Assembly: GCA_903924485.1 (NCBI GenBank)
Contig: CAIYBL010000120.1
Span: 1-45,912 of the forward strand
Reading direction: 5' to 3'
DNA from: an uncultured Actinomycetes bacterium
GTDB lineage: Bacteria > Actinomycetota > Actinomycetes > Nanopelagicales > Nanopelagicaceae
Length of the DNA: 45,912 bases
The notes beneath the pieces were generated by a model. It was not told where the DNA came from. It saw only the letters and a program-made list of their open reading frames with translations, and made no database searches. Shown piece after piece: positions 1 through 6,788 of the stretch. Made by a program: the position numbers and the translations under genes. Position 1 is the stretch's first letter. Every line of letters begins with the position of its first letter.

Positions 1-125
1 GAAACCCACACGAAGTGGCCGAAGCCGTCTGTTTCCTTGCCAGTGATGCGGCTTCCTTCATCACTGGCTCATCGCTGTTGGTCGACGGTGGGTTTAGCGC
101 ACAAAAAGATTTAACTAAGAGCTAG
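1..125 (+). CDS. Short-chain dehydrogenase/reductase, C-terminal fragment (5' end outside window)
   Basis: Frame starting at nt 3 reads [40 protein letters not shown], a classic SDR C-terminus (FLASD...ITG..L.VDGG). Confidence 0.9.
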
Positions 126-1053
126 AGGTGTCAGAGATAGGCTGTGCCGAAGAGTCTCGAAACGCCTCCACTATCGCCGCATCCTGTATGCCTAGCCCGA
201 CGGAGAAATACATAATTGAGTCCAGGGAGTTTGTACGTCCGGCGGCTTGCTGATTTATCACGTCGCCAATCGATATGACGTGCAGCGCTGGATCAATTTC
301 CAAGGCTGAGACAATCGAGCCATTTTGAATTCGCGCCGTCGCAGCATCGTCAACGAAAACTCTGCTGGCTTGCAAAACGGACTTGCCGGAAACTTCTTCA
401 CGGTTTGGCGCAAAAGATCCAATCGAAATCAAAGTTTTCCCCGAGCCAATGCCATCAACAACGACTGGTGAAACAGAATTCGTACATACAAAGATCAGAT
501 CGCACTCCTCAATCGACTCTTGGAGATTTAGAGACACGATTATTCGCGGCTCAGATGAGAATAGCGTTTTGAAATCGGAGTCAGGTTTGCGAGCAACGAC
601 AATTATCTTCTCAGGGTTGAATAATTCCAGAGCTGCAGCAGCGTGAGCCTGAGCCGTGTGTCCTGCACCTATTATCGCGATGTTCTTAACTGGATTTGCA
701 AGAGTCTGAGCGGCCATCATGCTCGCCGCGGTAGTGCGAATCTTCGTCGTCATTTCTCCATCAAAGATTTCTTCAAGGGCTCCAGTGGTCTGATTTAAAA
801 CACCGACGTAGCTTTGCACCACAGGAATATTTCGATCGGCATTGCCAGGAGTGACGCTTCCGAATTTCACGATCGTTGGACCGTGCATTGAGGCGCGAGC
901 AAGGTAGGCGAACTGGGCATCGGCACCATTTGGAAGTACGCCTCTGGCTCCCATGGTTGCTTCACCCCGCGAGAGCGCAGCGAACACTTCGACCTGGGTT
1001 TGGATTCCCCTAGCCAAAGGAAAAGCAGCCTCTAAGTCATCGGCTGTAATCAT
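115..1053 (-). CDS. Ornithine cyclodeaminase / mu-crystallin family protein
   Basis: Protein from [16 protein letters not shown]...; motifs [18 protein letters not shown]-like, [21 protein letters not shown]. The ORF track starts at 1239, but an ATG at 1053 gives the usual family start and avoids overlap with the divergent permease. Confidence 0.85.
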
Positions 1054-1226
1054 TGGGAGAGTAAAAGTTGCCTTCACGTAGATGATCTTGGTGCATGTGC
1101 GCCCGAAAGTGAAAGATGAACTACTGATCAGTACAAAGTTTCTTTGTTTTTTGGAGAGCAAACTGCGTCGATTTTTCTCATTAAGACATACTATTTGTCC
1201 AATCTTTCGAGAAAGGGAAGGTTCAC

Positions 1227-2594
1227 ATGTCAGATTCACAAAAGCACAACTTAGAGCGCGGCCTTGGATTTAAAGGTCTCTTGTCACTTGCGTTGAGTGA
1301 CATTACGCCGATGGCTTCACTCTTGGTTACGGCCGGAGCAGTCCTTGTTCTATCCGGAACTGCAGGTGTTTGGGCATTCTCACTCGGATGCTTAATCGCG
1401 ATTACTGTGGCAATGAGCATGGCGGAACTTGGTTCGATGTATCCAACTGCCGGTGGCCTTTTCTATATTGTTAACAAGGTCCTTGGGCGACCAATTGGTT
1501 TCCTTGCAATGATCGACTACGTCCTCCAAGGCATCTTCATCCCAGCAACTCTCGCCCTTGGAATTGGCACATACCTCCACTCTTTGAATGCATCTATCCC
1601 GGTTAACGCCTCGTCGGCGATCGGTATGGCAATTATTACGATCTTGGCTGTTCTCAGAATCCATATGAGCGCAATCATCGTAACTGTTTGCCTTGTCATC
1701 GAAGGTGTTGTTTTGGCGCTCATTATCGGAGTAGGCATGTTCCATTTGAATCAGCCACTTTCGATTATTACCCACCCTGTCATGATGCATGACGGCAAAT
1801 TGGGATCGGTCGCTGGAGCAGCCATTGTTGCTGCTATTGCTTCCTCCCTCTTCTCCGTAAACGGATACGACAGCGCGATCAACTTCTCTGAAGAAGTTAA
1901 GGGAAATGCTCGAAGTATCGGTCGCGCAGTTATGTACTCCGCACTCGTCGGTGTGGTTCTTGAATTGACTGCCTTCACATTCGGTCTTTTCGGTACACGC
2001 GACTTGGGGGCCTACCTTTCAACCGCAACGCCATTCACTGACTCTGTTACAACTGCTCTTGGAAAGGGCGCCGGACAAGCTGTTTTGGTCGGGGCACTTT
2101 TTGCAATCGTGAACGCAACTCTTGCAATCACTTTGCAGTTCGCTCGAGTACTTTGGGCTAGCGGACGCGACAAAGCGTGGCCAAGTCCAGTTAACGATTT
2201 CCTTGGAAAAGTACATCCAAAGTTCCGATCTCCATGGGCTGCAACTCTCGTTATCGGTGGAGTATCAACCATCTTCTGTGTGAAGTCATCACTCATCTCA
2301 ACAGTGACCTTCACAGCAGTTTTGATCATCATTCTTTACGCGTTGATCGCAATTGCCGCTCTTGTAAGCCGCATCAAGAACAAAGATGAAGAGCGTCCAT
2401 TCAAGATGATGTTCTGGCCGATCCCGCCAATTATCACGATCGTTGGCGTTGGCTTGACCCTTACACAGCAAAAGAAGGGCGACTTGAAGATTATTCTGAT
2501 CGTCGTTGTTATCTCTCTTGCTTACTATTTCCTCTATCTCAACCGTTCAAAGCACACCAGATGGGTACCTCATAACCCCGCTCTGATGGACTAG
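1227..2594 (+). CDS. APC-family amino acid permease
   Basis: 455 aa, about 12 hydrophobic segments, N-terminal LSLALSDITPMASLL and EEVKGNARSIGRAV, typical of APC transporters; SD-like aagggaagg upstream. Confidence 0.88.
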   Translation: MSDSQKHNLERGLGFKGLLSLALSDITPMASLLVTAGAVLVLSGTAGVWAFSLGCLIAITVAMSMAELGSMYPTAGGLFYIVNKVLGRPIGFLAMIDYVLQGIFIPATLALGIGTYLHSLNASIPVNASSAIGMAIITILAVLRIHMSAIIVTVCLVIEGVVLALIIGVGMFHLNQPLSIITHPVMMHDGKLGSVAGAAIVAAIASSLFSVNGYDSAINFSEEVKGNARSIGRAVMYSALVGVVLELTAFTFGLFGTRDLGAYLSTATPFTDSVTTALGKGAGQAVLVGALFAIVNATLAITLQFARVLWASGRDKAWPSPVNDFLGKVHPKFRSPWAATLVIGGVSTIFCVKSSLISTVTFTAVLIIILYALIAIAALVSRIKNKDEERPFKMMFWPIPPIITIVGVGLTLTQQKKGDLKIILIVVVISLAYYFLYLNRSKHTRWVPHNPALMD

Positions 2595-2620
2595 TCCGAC
2601 AACAAATAATCACATTAAAC

Positions 2621-2654
2621 TGAAGGGGTTGGCCCGCAAAGGCCAGCCCCTTCA
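2621..2654 (+). terminator. Hairpin terminator after the permease gene
   Basis: tgaaggggttggcc-cgcaaa-ggccagccccttca: 14-bp stem with one G-U pair, 26 bp after the permease stop; only a weak T tract follows. Confidence 0.75.
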
Positions 2655-2678
2655 ATTATGGTATTTACGAGGAGCGTT

Positions 2679-2840
2679 ATGGATATTGAGAACTTTTCTG
2701 AAATCGATAAAGCCAACTTGCCCAAGCTAAAGCAATATTGGGATTACTTGAAAACTTATCGGGCTAATGTGGATGAATCCCAACTTATTAGTAGCGATAT
2801 TGCCAATATTTTCACCTCACCATTGGACGGTGAAAAGTGA
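2679..2840 (+). CDS. Small GatC/AtzG-like amidase partner protein (53 aa)
   Basis: MDIENFSEIDKANLPKLKQYWDYLKTYRANVDESQLISSDIANIFTSPLDGEK; gaggag RBS; stop TGA overlaps the GTG start of the amidase (GTGA). ORF track start is 2658. Confidence 0.55.
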   Translation: MDIENFSEIDKANLPKLKQYWDYLKTYRANVDESQLISSDIANIFTSPLDGEK

Positions 2841-4252
2841 GTAGAGAGTTGCATCTGCTTTCGATTGCGCAAGTAAGTAAGTTACTCAAGAAGAAAGAAG
2901 TTTCGCCCGTTGAGTTAACCAAGATTTGCCTGGATCGAATTGAAGAATTTAACCCAAAGCTCAATGCTTTCATCACCGTGTACTCAGAAGAGGCGATGAA
3001 ACAAGCCAAAAAGGCTGCGCATGAGATTGCACGTGATGAGTACAGAGGAAAATTGCATGGTGTCCCCCTCGCCATTAAAGACAATATCTATTTTGCTGAT
3101 CACGTTACGACGATGGGATCCAAGATTCATAAGGATTTCGTTTCAGATTTTGATGCCACCACAGTCGTCAAGCTTCGCGAGAGTGGCGCAATCTTTTTAG
3201 GTAAAACAAATATGCACGAATACGCACTTGGTGCCACAACAGATAACCCTCACTACGGAACTTGCCGCAATCCATGGCATTTTGGGAAGATTCCTGGCGG
3301 CTCTAGTGGTGGATCAGCAGCTGCCGTTTCTGCATTCTTGGCATACGGAGCCCTCGGAACGGATACATCAGGGTCAATTCGTGTACCTGCCGCTGCTTGT
3401 GGGCTTGTCGGGCTTAAGGCTACATATGGCCGAGTCAGCAAATATGGATGCTTCCCAGAGGCTTGGAGCCTTGATCACATTGGTCCACTCACACGCACCG
3501 TTGAAGATGCTGCAATTATCTTCGATGCCATCAGTGGGGGCGATAAGAATGATCCAACGTCTCTAGATTTAAAGCCGACCAAACTGGCTAAAAAGTTGGA
3601 TGGCGATCTGAGCAAGCTGACAATCGGGATTGAAGAGGACTTCTTCTTTCACTTCACTGACGTAGATGTTGAACGCCAAGTTCGAGCGACAATTAGTCAA
3701 CTGAAGATAATGGGCGCCAAAGTTAAGACGGTCAAGATTCCATCCTTAAAGGATGCTTTTTGGGCGTTAACAATCATTGACACCGCTGAAACAACTGCAG
3801 TTCATCAACCATTGATGAAAGAGCACGCAAAGGATTATGGAACTGACGTACGTTTTCTTATTGAGTGCGGCTATTTACCGTCAGCCGTTGATTATTTGCA
3901 AGCGCTACAGCTACGCCGAATTATTCAACAAGAGGTAACGGCAGTATTCGAGGAGATTGATGTCCTGCTCGCTCCGACCCTTCCCAGCAAGACCCCATCA
4001 GTCGGAGAACTTACAAGTGTCATAAATGGCAAGTCAGTGGACACCATTGAAACTTGTATGCACAATGTTGGCCCTGGCAACCTACTCGGACTTCCTTCAA
4101 TCTCCATGCCATGTGGAATTATCGATGGGATTCCCGTCGGAATTGAAATCATCGGTGCGCCACTACAGGAGTTGAAAGTTCTCAATCTTGCGAGAGGCCT
4201 AGAAAGAACGAATCCACTCGGTGGTCAAGTTCCAACTGCCTACCTCAACTGA
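2837..4252 (+). CDS. Amidase signature family protein (GatA/AtzE-like)
   Basis: Motifs PLAIKDNIYF, GGSSGGSAAAVSAF, GTDTSGSIRVPAAACGLVGLKATYGRVS (Ser-cisSer-Lys triad region). Confidence 0.92.
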   Translation: MSRELHLLSIAQVSKLLKKKEVSPVELTKICLDRIEEFNPKLNAFITVYSEEAMKQAKKAAHEIARDEYRGKLHGVPLAIKDNIYFADHVTTMGSKIHKDFVSDFDATTVVKLRESGAIFLGKTNMHEYALGATTDNPHYGTCRNPWHFGKIPGGSSGGSAAAVSAFLAYGALGTDTSGSIRVPAAACGLVGLKATYGRVSKYGCFPEAWSLDHIGPLTRTVEDAAIIFDAISGGDKNDPTSLDLKPTKLAKKLDGDLSKLTIGIEEDFFFHFTDVDVERQVRATISQLKIMGAKVKTVKIPSLKDAFWALTIIDTAETTAVHQPLMKEHAKDYGTDVRFLIECGYLPSAVDYLQALQLRRIIQQEVTAVFEEIDVLLAPTLPSKTPSVGELTSVINGKSVDTIETCMHNVGPGNLLGLPSISMPCGIIDGIPVGIEIIGAPLQELKVLNLARGLERTNPLGGQVPTAYLN

Positions 4253-4285: not shown

Positions 4286-4331
4286 GTGCCCCGAGTGGGG
4301 GTCGAACCCACACTGAACGGATTCTAAGGCC
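4286..4331 (-). pseudogene. tRNA-Leu 3'-end remnant (att-like duplicate)
   Basis: 4286-4315 is identical over 30 nt to 4944-4973 (acceptor 3' strand, T arm, variable loop of tRNA-Leu); 4316-4331 matches 11/16 into the anticodon arm. No 5' half present. Confidence 0.85.
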
Positions 4332-4914
4332 TTGTAAATAAATCATGGCCCAAGAATGAATTCCCAATAATCAAAATGCCAACCAAGATAAAAAGTATCT
4401 GAGTCAAAACCCAAACAGGATAGGAACGCACCGGGTGAAGGAATGAATAAGTCTTGTGCATTATTTTGTTCCGTACACGCAATTTTTTCGTATCCCCTGG
4501 CTCTTTGATCATTTCTGCTGCTCGATTATTCGCGTCTATCCATTCCGCGCTCTGCGTATCGCTGAAGCTGTAACCAAACAACTCATCTTCTGTTTTTACG
4601 AGCATTTTAGTAATGGTGAATTCATAAAGTCTTATTCTTGAGAGGGAGGCAAGTGATACAAAAGCGATGAAGATTCCCAGCAGAGCAGAGAGAACTCTTG
4701 CCGTAGTCCTGGAGGAATTATTGAGAGCAATACTCAATAAAAACGCTTGTCCGCCTAAAGATAAGGCGGGGATTTGCCAAAATAGTGCGTCGAAATGTCT
4801 ACGTCTCTCACTCAATGAGGTGTACTTAAGAACCGCTAGATCCTTACTTTCTGAATTTGGCACCCTGTCTCCCTCATGCTTTTGCAGTAGGTTAAATCTT
4901 AGATTGATCTTCAT
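4324..4914 (-). CDS. Orphan membrane protein (196 aa) within a tRNA-flanked micro-island
   Basis: Three predicted TM stretches: LFWQIPALSLGGQAFLLSIAL, TARVLSALLGIFIAFVSLASL, VWVLTQILFILVGILIIGNSFL; lies between the duplicated tRNA ends. Confidence 0.7.
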   Translation of the reverse strand: MKINLRFNLLQKHEGDRVPNSESKDLAVLKYTSLSERRRHFDALFWQIPALSLGGQAFLLSIALNNSSRTTARVLSALLGIFIAFVSLASLSRIRLYEFTITKMLVKTEDELFGYSFSDTQSAEWIDANNRAAEMIKEPGDTKKLRVRNKIMHKTYSFLHPVRSYPVWVLTQILFILVGILIIGNSFLGHDLFTRP

Positions 4915-4944
4915 CTAATGGAAACAGAAATCAATGAATGAAAG

Positions 4945-5017
4945 TGCCCCGAGTGGGGGTCGAACCCACACTGGGAGGATTTTAAGTCCTCTGCCTCTGC
5001 CATTGGGCTATCGGGGC
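4945..5017 (-). tRNA. tRNA-Leu (anticodon TAA), short variable loop
   Basis: gccccga acceptor / tcggggc; anticodon arm gagga-cttaaaa-tcctc; T arm gtggg-ttcgacc-cccac; discriminator A; CCA not encoded. Confidence 0.88.
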
Positions 5018-5981: not shown

Positions 5982-6788
5982 CTAGCCAATCGCGCGTGAA
6001 AACCTGGCCGCAGTTTCAAGTACTGCGTCCAACTGATCGTGTGTGAGCTTTCCAGTAAAGGTGTTTTGCTGGCTCGGGTGATAGCTGGCAATCAATAGGT
6101 AATCAACGCCGCTATGTGAGTAGGCGTATTCGGCGCCGTGGCCAAACTTCACAGCAGGGATCGGATGTCCCAATTCCCGCAAAGTCTTAAGCAGTGCGTT
6201 CCAAGCGAATGCACCAAGACCAACAAAGGCACGCACAGTTGGCAGAGTTAACTCGATCTCACGCTTCAACCATGGCGCACACATGTCGCGCTCTGGTGTG
6301 TCTGGCTTGTTATCTGGAGGTGCGCATCGCACTGCAGTATTTATGCGGGTGTGCTTTAACTTTTGTCCATCATCGCGCGAAGTACTTGTTGGAATCTTCG
6401 CAATTCCGATACGGTGCAATGAACCATAGAGCCAATCACCAGATGAGTCTCCTGTAAATATTCTCCCTGTGCGATTTGCTCCGTGAGCACCGGGTGCTAA
6501 ACCGACAATTAATAACCGTGGTTTGTCCGAGCCAAATCCTGGAATTGGCTTTCCCCAGTATTCGTGATCGGTGTATGCCTTGCGCTTTACGACAGCAACT
6601 TCCTCGCGCCATGCAACGAGCCTAGGACAAGCGGTGCAATGAGTGATGGCTTCATCTAGTTGGCCGATTGTCTCTATCTTCGCAGCAACGGCCTTAACGT
6701 TTGTTGCTTTAGCGCGAGCCAATGGACCAGGCGATTCCGTCGAGGATGTCACTCTCTGATGCGACAAATTCTGATGCACCCGTTGCAA
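5982..6788 (-). CDS. Uracil-DNA glycosylase, family 5-like (Fe-S)
   Basis: ITHCTACPRLVAWREE, GLAPGAHGANRTGRIFTGDSSGDWLY, ASYHPSQQNTFTGKLT. True start uncertain; the ORF overlaps the upstream ppx gene. Confidence 0.9.
   Translation of the reverse strand: MQRVHQNLSHQRVTSSTESPGPLARAKATNVKAVAAKIETIGQLDEAITHCTACPRLVAWREEVAVVKRKAYTDHEYWGKPIPGFGSDKPRLLIVGLAPGAHGANRTGRIFTGDSSGDWLYGSLHRIGIAKIPTSTSRDDGQKLKHTRINTAVRCAPPDNKPDTPERDMCAPWLKREIELTLPTVRAFVGLGAFAWNALLKTLRELGHPIPAVKFGHGAEYAYSHSGVDYLLIASYHPSQQNTFTGKLTHDQLDAVLETAARFSRAIG

Follow-up and report, generated by a model that had tools for sequence, protein, structure and literature searches.

A single-gene cassette between tRNA-Leu(UAA) 3' ends, a probable non-autonomous unit of an additive genomic island in a freshwater actinobacterial family

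When the DNA between an intact tRNA gene and a second copy of that gene's 3' end holds one gene and no recombinase, is it the leftover of a larger element or a unit that travels as such? The question is raised by a tRNA-Leu(UAA) locus in a stretch of 45,912 nucleotides (hereafter the window), for which the original prediction offered two readings, the scar of a degraded island or a minimal cargo cassette mobilised in trans.

The 30-nt 3' end of the tRNA, GTGCCCCGAGTGGGGGTCGAACCCACACTG, occurs at exactly 4286 and 4944. The perfect duplication that had been predicted thus stands, at 4286–4315 in the distal core and at 4944–4973 in tRNA-Leu, in the same orientation, and it is the sole repeated 30-mer in the window, where about 1e-9 such pairs would be expected by chance. 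The predicted size of 658 bp is correct as the start-to-start spacing but not as the intervening DNA, which comprises 628 nt (4316–4943). Further similarity in the anticodon arm is likewise present, although at 12/17 positions rather than the 11/16 given earlier. Over tRNA positions 28–74 the proximal and distal cores agree at 42/47 positions, all five mismatches lying outside the 30-nt perfect part, in the anticodon arm (P = 0.004 for random clustering), and a repeat search stretches the similarity to 52 nt at 87%. Between the cores, the ORF list and a Pfam search returned the single ORF (4324–4914) that had been foreseen, and no integrase or recombinase. The features of the locus are as follows.

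4944–5017, minus strand: intact tRNA-Leu(UAA), 74 nt, short variable arm (ARAGORN; Rfam RF00005, 58.9 bits); target gene and proximal end of the cassette, anchored beside UDG-PPX-DUF501-eno in relatives
4944–4990, minus strand: proximal attachment core, tRNA positions 28–74 (anticodon arm to 3' end)
4915–4943, minus strand: leader of 29 nt from the tRNA 3' end to the start codon, conserved in G108 and G027
4324–4914, minus strand: cargo gene, 196 aa, helical, putative membrane protein (ORF call)
4286–4332, minus strand: distal attachment core, partial copy of tRNA positions 28–74
2837–4252, plus strand: amidase beside the distal core (PF01425), accessory
5982–6788, minus strand: uracil-DNA-glycosylase-like (UDG) gene, conserved anchor on the tRNA side (synteny across the genus); the name is a reading of the sequence, with no family-library match behind it

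In this family both tRNA-Leu(UAA) (window 4944–5017) and tRNA-Leu(CAA) (L218 65–138) have 74 nt and a short variable arm, which is unusual among leucine tRNAs.

The chromosomal slot was compared across relatives, most of which are metagenome assemblies. Within the genus the order eno, FtsB-like, DUF501, PPX, UDG, tRNA-Leu is conserved and is followed by YccA and two MFS genes, while the stretch from the tRNA to YccA varies. The slot is empty in G031, G076 and G100, contains a single gene without repeats in G003 (197 aa) or one gene plus a nitroreductase, again without repeats, in G107 and G070, and harbours a longer gene set in G043. Cargo other than that of the window is present in G064, G103, G112 and G079; in G064 the tRNA is followed by a 464-aa gene, a 39-nt tRNA copy, more genes and then YccA. 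A tRNA copy stands immediately ahead of YccA in G019 and G082. Distal copies comparable to that of the window were found in G108, G103, G064, G019, G082, G079, G112 and G091, and all of them end inside the tRNA, where unrelated element sequence begins. Relatives with empty sites, with other cargo enclosed by the same repeats (G064) and with longer islands in which a tyrosine integrase adjoins a tRNA-Leu copy (G103, G239 and the closed genome G079), which the original prediction had proposed to look for, thus all exist. In the assembled sequences, the space between tRNA-Leu(UAA) and the YccA/MFS genes either has the whole cassette or lacks it altogether.

Six genomes of the genus have a contig that ends 150 nt or less from the tRNA or from its copy, against 0.9 expected (P = 3.5e-4, distances tabulated by hand). 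In G103, identical downstream sequence follows both the intact tRNA (contig C18) and the integrase-side copy (C117), so that two upstream partners share one downstream side, a pattern consistent with empty and occupied forms mixed in one sample. In the window's genome, L144 3080–3409 and L152 4208–4537 both cover the nitroreductase–YccA border several SNPs apart, which indicates a strain mixture in that bin. Some tRNA-Leu genes are hybrids (L178 8653–8728, L171 2780–2853, L062 8442–8516), in which a 5' half of one allele is joined to a 3' half of another and the acceptor stem contains a mismatch. The slot is also filled by different secreted-looking proteins with the common C-terminus CIKGK.TKKV....P.CP.GYKKK, which often end at a tRNA copy (L057 3572–4966, L062 7077–8270, L059 3–497, L061 4027–4647, L178 5803–7470).

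On the distal side, the amidase has close homologues within the genus only in G103 and G054, and probably either belongs to the island as additional content or is a neighbour placed there by rearrangement. The amidase–permease pair (window 115–4252; L146/L147) adjoins the distal tRNA copy in the window and is found at the IclR/leuC locus in G103 instead; hence either this pair has also moved or the join in the window is chimeric. The junction of distal copy and amidase is known from the window only, and the unit of tRNA, gene and copy is confirmed in G108.

The cargo ORF lies on the same strand as tRNA-Leu, starts 29 nt past the tRNA 3' end and takes its stop codon from within the tRNA-derived distal core; in G108 the stop, ACT TAA AATCC, is tRNA anticodon-loop sequence. 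A scan of the cassette stretch for promoters and terminators returned no sigma-70-like promoter and no terminator. Given this result and the 29-nt spacing behind the tRNA, it is plausible that the gene may be transcribed from the tRNA promoter. Its homologues share 89% (G108) and 76% (G027) of amino acids with the window's protein, and dN/dS values of 0.33–0.48 indicate that the gene is under purifying selection. The protein is probably membrane-bound. The 8xMP family (PF24838) scores 14.3 bits (E 0.037) against the window protein and 16.8 bits against the G027 homologue, both below the gathering cut-off of 30, and an AF2 model is helical, of low confidence (mean pLDDT 56). No match was obtained in defence and phage-family libraries, and no relative in the PDB. 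A plasmid search gave no match. Among phages, gp32 of Arthrobacter phage Kukla, annotated as 'membrane protein', matches at 35% over 99 aa and is encoded four genes away from the phage's tyrosine integrase, and on IMG/VR contig L163 a homologue adjoins a large recombinase-like ORF that reads as a serine recombinase. From these homologues near recombinase genes one might guess at an accessory role of prophage type, for instance superinfection exclusion. A viral origin of the cassette itself was considered and rejected, as no close IMG/VR relatives and no exact core in viral contigs were found and the distant homologues are limited to Kukla gp32 and L163. Chromosomal paralogues of the cargo gene are situated beside a TPR gene (L159 3024–4743, L155 2737–4392, L071 5246–6920), and in G027 the cassette landed beside a homologous TPR gene.

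Homologues of the cargo at this level are restricted to 3/296 genomes of the order: the window's genome (G000), G108 (metagenome bin 'uncultured actinobacterium Ja_bin-4140') and G027 ('Actinomycetota bacterium UFOp-RH-14apr17-26'). In G108, another species, the cassette occupies the same tRNA-Leu, anticodon arm to anticodon arm, and is 91% identical to that of the window over 739 nt, compared with 80.8% for the eno–UDG flank and 79% for mfd; dS amounts to 0.23 for the cassette gene against 2.0 for PPX and 2.2 for mfd. In G027, another genus, nucleotide identity is 82% for the cassette, noncoding leader included, against roughly 68% over the alignable part of mfd, and the proteins are 76% (cargo) and 61% (Mfd) identical. 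Homology between the window and G027 runs from about tRNA position 30 to the anticodon arm of the distal end, which defines the unit as extending from anticodon arm to anticodon arm; judged by its conservation, the 29-nt leader travels with it. The GC content of the cassette is 0.41 compared with 0.49 in the window, within the lowest 0.1% of windows. As the cassette is present in 2/21 genomes of the genus and its dS is about tenfold below that of core genes, vertical conservation in all relatives, which the original prediction had named as the outcome that would tell against it, is excluded. That the unit recurs in a second species and a second genus, and there differs far less at the DNA level than the genomes around it, points to a tiny travelling cassette at a hotspot of gene exchange, and on these divergences it is shown to have passed between species and between genera.

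The copy in G027 resides in an island behind tRNA-Lys(UUU), not at tRNA-Leu. Its proximal junction consists of tRNA-Lys through the anticodon (CGACGGACTTTTAATCC) followed by tRNA-Leu (CCCCAGTGTGGG), and the two tRNAs have GGACTT--AATCC in common, so that the joint is explained most simply by two cores recombining at the anticodon stem. The junction sequence shows a Lys/Leu chimeric core, the product, as we read it, of the cassette once having recombined with a tRNA-Lys remnant. On the distal side of G027 the expected 3' half of tRNA-Lys is absent and was presumably deleted. The crossover would lie just 3' of the anticodon in G027 and in the T-loop in G108; the two junctions conflict and yield no consensus crossover point, and a single enzyme with one crossover site explains this disagreement poorly.

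A candidate for the integrase of the site is encoded beside the tRNA copy of G103 (376 aa, Phage_integrase and SAM-like domains). Relatives at E ≤ 1e-60 are present in 12/251 genomes of the family, in five genera and at 14 loci, and at eight of these the integrase starts no more than about 250 nt away from a tRNA-Leu copy (G103, G239, G112, G027, G079, G155, G091, G165; G079 and G091 are closed genomes). Of the other loci, three have a contig break about 260 nt or less from where the integrase starts, and one is near tRNA-Tyr. The integrase-bearing elements in the slot measure about 8–10 kb; in closed G079 a 7.9-kb element, made up of tRNA, cargo, integrase and a 49-nt copy, fits exactly into it, and in G112 and G091 the integrase element is followed in tandem by integrase-free cassettes. 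The G103-type family is thus the probable integrase of this site. In IMG/VR the G103 integrase has no relative.

The integrase-bearing elements contain, inside both ends, two direct copies of RTGSATACA spaced by 11–12 nt, at a distance of 55–58 nt inward from the left end and 97–106 nt from the right, a placement expected of arm-type sites.

L177 2913–2990 and 10670–10770, also L153, L176, L179 and L181: RTGSATACA repeats, putative arm-type sites

Among 2000 pieces of 250 nt drawn at random from the window, none had such a pair at up to three mismatches; the pair is degenerate (3–4 mismatches) at the right ends of G239, G091 and G155, and the first cassette of G091 keeps the left pair only. 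The cassettes of the window (first 250 nt scanned, leader included), G108, G027 and G064 have no such pair, and the G103-type integrase may consequently not excise the window cassette unaided. The genome of the window encodes only XerC/XerD-like PF00589 recombinases, a call based on size, score and presence in every genome, and contains no integrase element in tandem with the cassette. Two classes of element were seen at the one tRNA (L176 16172–16245 and 5901–5976; L179 16005–16078 and 8585–8660): those of G027 and G112 bring the 5' part of the tRNA together with its promoter region, so that a defunct 5' tRNA stump stays behind on the side of UDG, and those of G079, G103 and G239 bring the tRNA 3' half.

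In combination, the empty sites, the other cargo, the unit shared with G108 and G027 and its rarity (3/296) argue for a horizontally moving one-gene cassette of a tRNA island, and we consider it likely that the locus belongs to an additive genomic island at tRNA-Leu(UAA) in this freshwater actinobacterial family, as a single-gene, non-autonomous cassette. In the mechanism envisaged, a cassette circle with a tRNA 3' half as its attachment site would recombine with the 3' half of the chromosomal tRNA through a tyrosine integrase, which would rebuild an intact tRNA on the UDG side. With each insertion the previous 3' half would end up on the far side, and cassettes would stack as a consequence. 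Of the 38 tRNAs of the closed relative G079, none but tRNA-Leu(UAA) carries this anticodon, and the cell thus has to keep one copy intact. The enzyme would most likely be supplied by integrase-bearing visitors to the site, either in trans or with the cassette carried along as a neighbour (accretion). Mobilisation in trans is something we can only infer, since the cassette has neither integrase nor arm sites and its host genome only XerC/XerD-like recombinases; an armless cassette may be excised by that integrase, be carried beside an arm-bearing element or spread by homologous recombination.

The last of these routes can also be taken as a full alternative, in which RecA swaps in DNA together with tRNA-Leu and its flanks by way of the tRNA and the repeats, no site-specific recombinase acting on the cassette. 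A cassette devoid of arm sites, a host with Xer recombinases only and crossover positions that differ between G027 and G108 would all suit such exchange. However, homology between G000 and G108 stops at the tRNA repeats with unrelated sequence directly outside on both sides, the G027 joint connects different tRNAs that share only short anticodon-arm homology, and an intact tRNA with a truncated 3' copy is the usual product of an integrase; we give this alternative a limited, though real, chance. The scar reading, according to which a prophage-like or integrase-bearing element at the tRNA shrank to one terminal gene and left a remnant that is now immobile, is in keeping with a unit free of integrase and arm-type sites, with the proximity of the cargo's phage homologue to an integrase, and with the first G091 cassette, whose single left arm-type pair makes it a decay intermediate. 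Decay may explain how the cassette originated, but from then on it has travelled as a whole: the same two ends recur in G000, G108 and G027, dS is far below that of core genes, and the tRNA in G027 is a different one. Such a scar is unlikely, and because a cassette with the same ends is found in three genomes of two genera, the minimal cargo cassette is the favoured one of the two readings originally put forward.

An ancient tandem duplication of tRNA-Leu, with one copy decayed and a resident gene in between, might be suspected from the anticodon-like TAG of the distal copy and from the restriction of its drift to the 5' part. It is contradicted by the comparative loci and was rejected: relatives have empty sites and other cargo, the cassette is confined to two genomes of the genus at low dS, and the distal copies all end within the tRNA and give way to unrelated element sequence, which leaves it scarcely credible. 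Quite improbable, in our estimate, is a core-only, integron-like system, in which single-gene frames would end in a tRNA 3' half serving as an attC-like exchange site, would be captured behind an essential single-copy tRNA whose promoter expresses the first cassette, and would be moved independently of arm-type sites by a recombinase tolerating other tRNAs with a similar anticodon arm.

Read as an island cassette, the locus represents a tRNA genomic island at its minimum, one gene plus one tRNA half, tied to relatives by empty sites, stacked cassettes, a probable integrase with putative arm sites and a copy at another tRNA in another genus. How streamlined freshwater bacteria gain genes through integrase-free cassettes, a process so far loosely explained, thereby becomes testable with defined DNA.

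Integrase-free cassettes bounded by tRNA or tmRNA 3' repeats form additive flexible islands in Alteromonas (PMC4119200; PMC5217437), occur with transfer between genera in Ca. Actinomarinales (PMC7771536) and include units down to 330 bp and one CDS in fGI-2 of Ca. Methylopumilus (PMC10872708). The window cassette shares with additive tRNA islands the conserved tRNA target, the 3' tRNA repeat at the far end, presence and absence, variable cargo and transfer between genera. It differs in host order and tRNA, in that one and the same single-gene unit was traced in three genomes and onto another tRNA, in the ORF stop codon provided by the repeat, and in the candidate integrase family with putative arm sites. 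Integrase-free units with core repeats, in tandem with integrase-bearing elements at an RNA gene, are also known from the CIME concept with its accretion (PMC5704250) and from the ssrA islands of Dehalococcoides, 16 with and 15 without an integration module (PMC3146451). Like a CIME, the window cassette is free of integrase and transfer genes and consists of a single ORF; of attL and attR it keeps the core copies, without the putative arm-type repeats of the integrase. The Dehalococcoides enzyme is a serine integrase, whereas a tyrosine integrase is found here and the window cassette has one gene. Tycheposons (PMC10872708) are likewise tRNA-targeted cargo islands of streamlined aquatic bacteria with a tyrosine recombinase, yet they span 4–200 kb and carry the recombinase, whereas the present unit has 0.66 kb and none. 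Integron cassettes resemble it as single promoter-poor genes with one recombination site, stackable and co-oriented behind a promoter-bearing gene, but in place of attC and IntI the window has the tRNA-Leu 3' half and G000 only XerC/XerD-like PF00589 proteins. The cassette is a further case of the known integrase-free tRNA cassettes and stands out by its small size and by how well it can be connected with its relatives.
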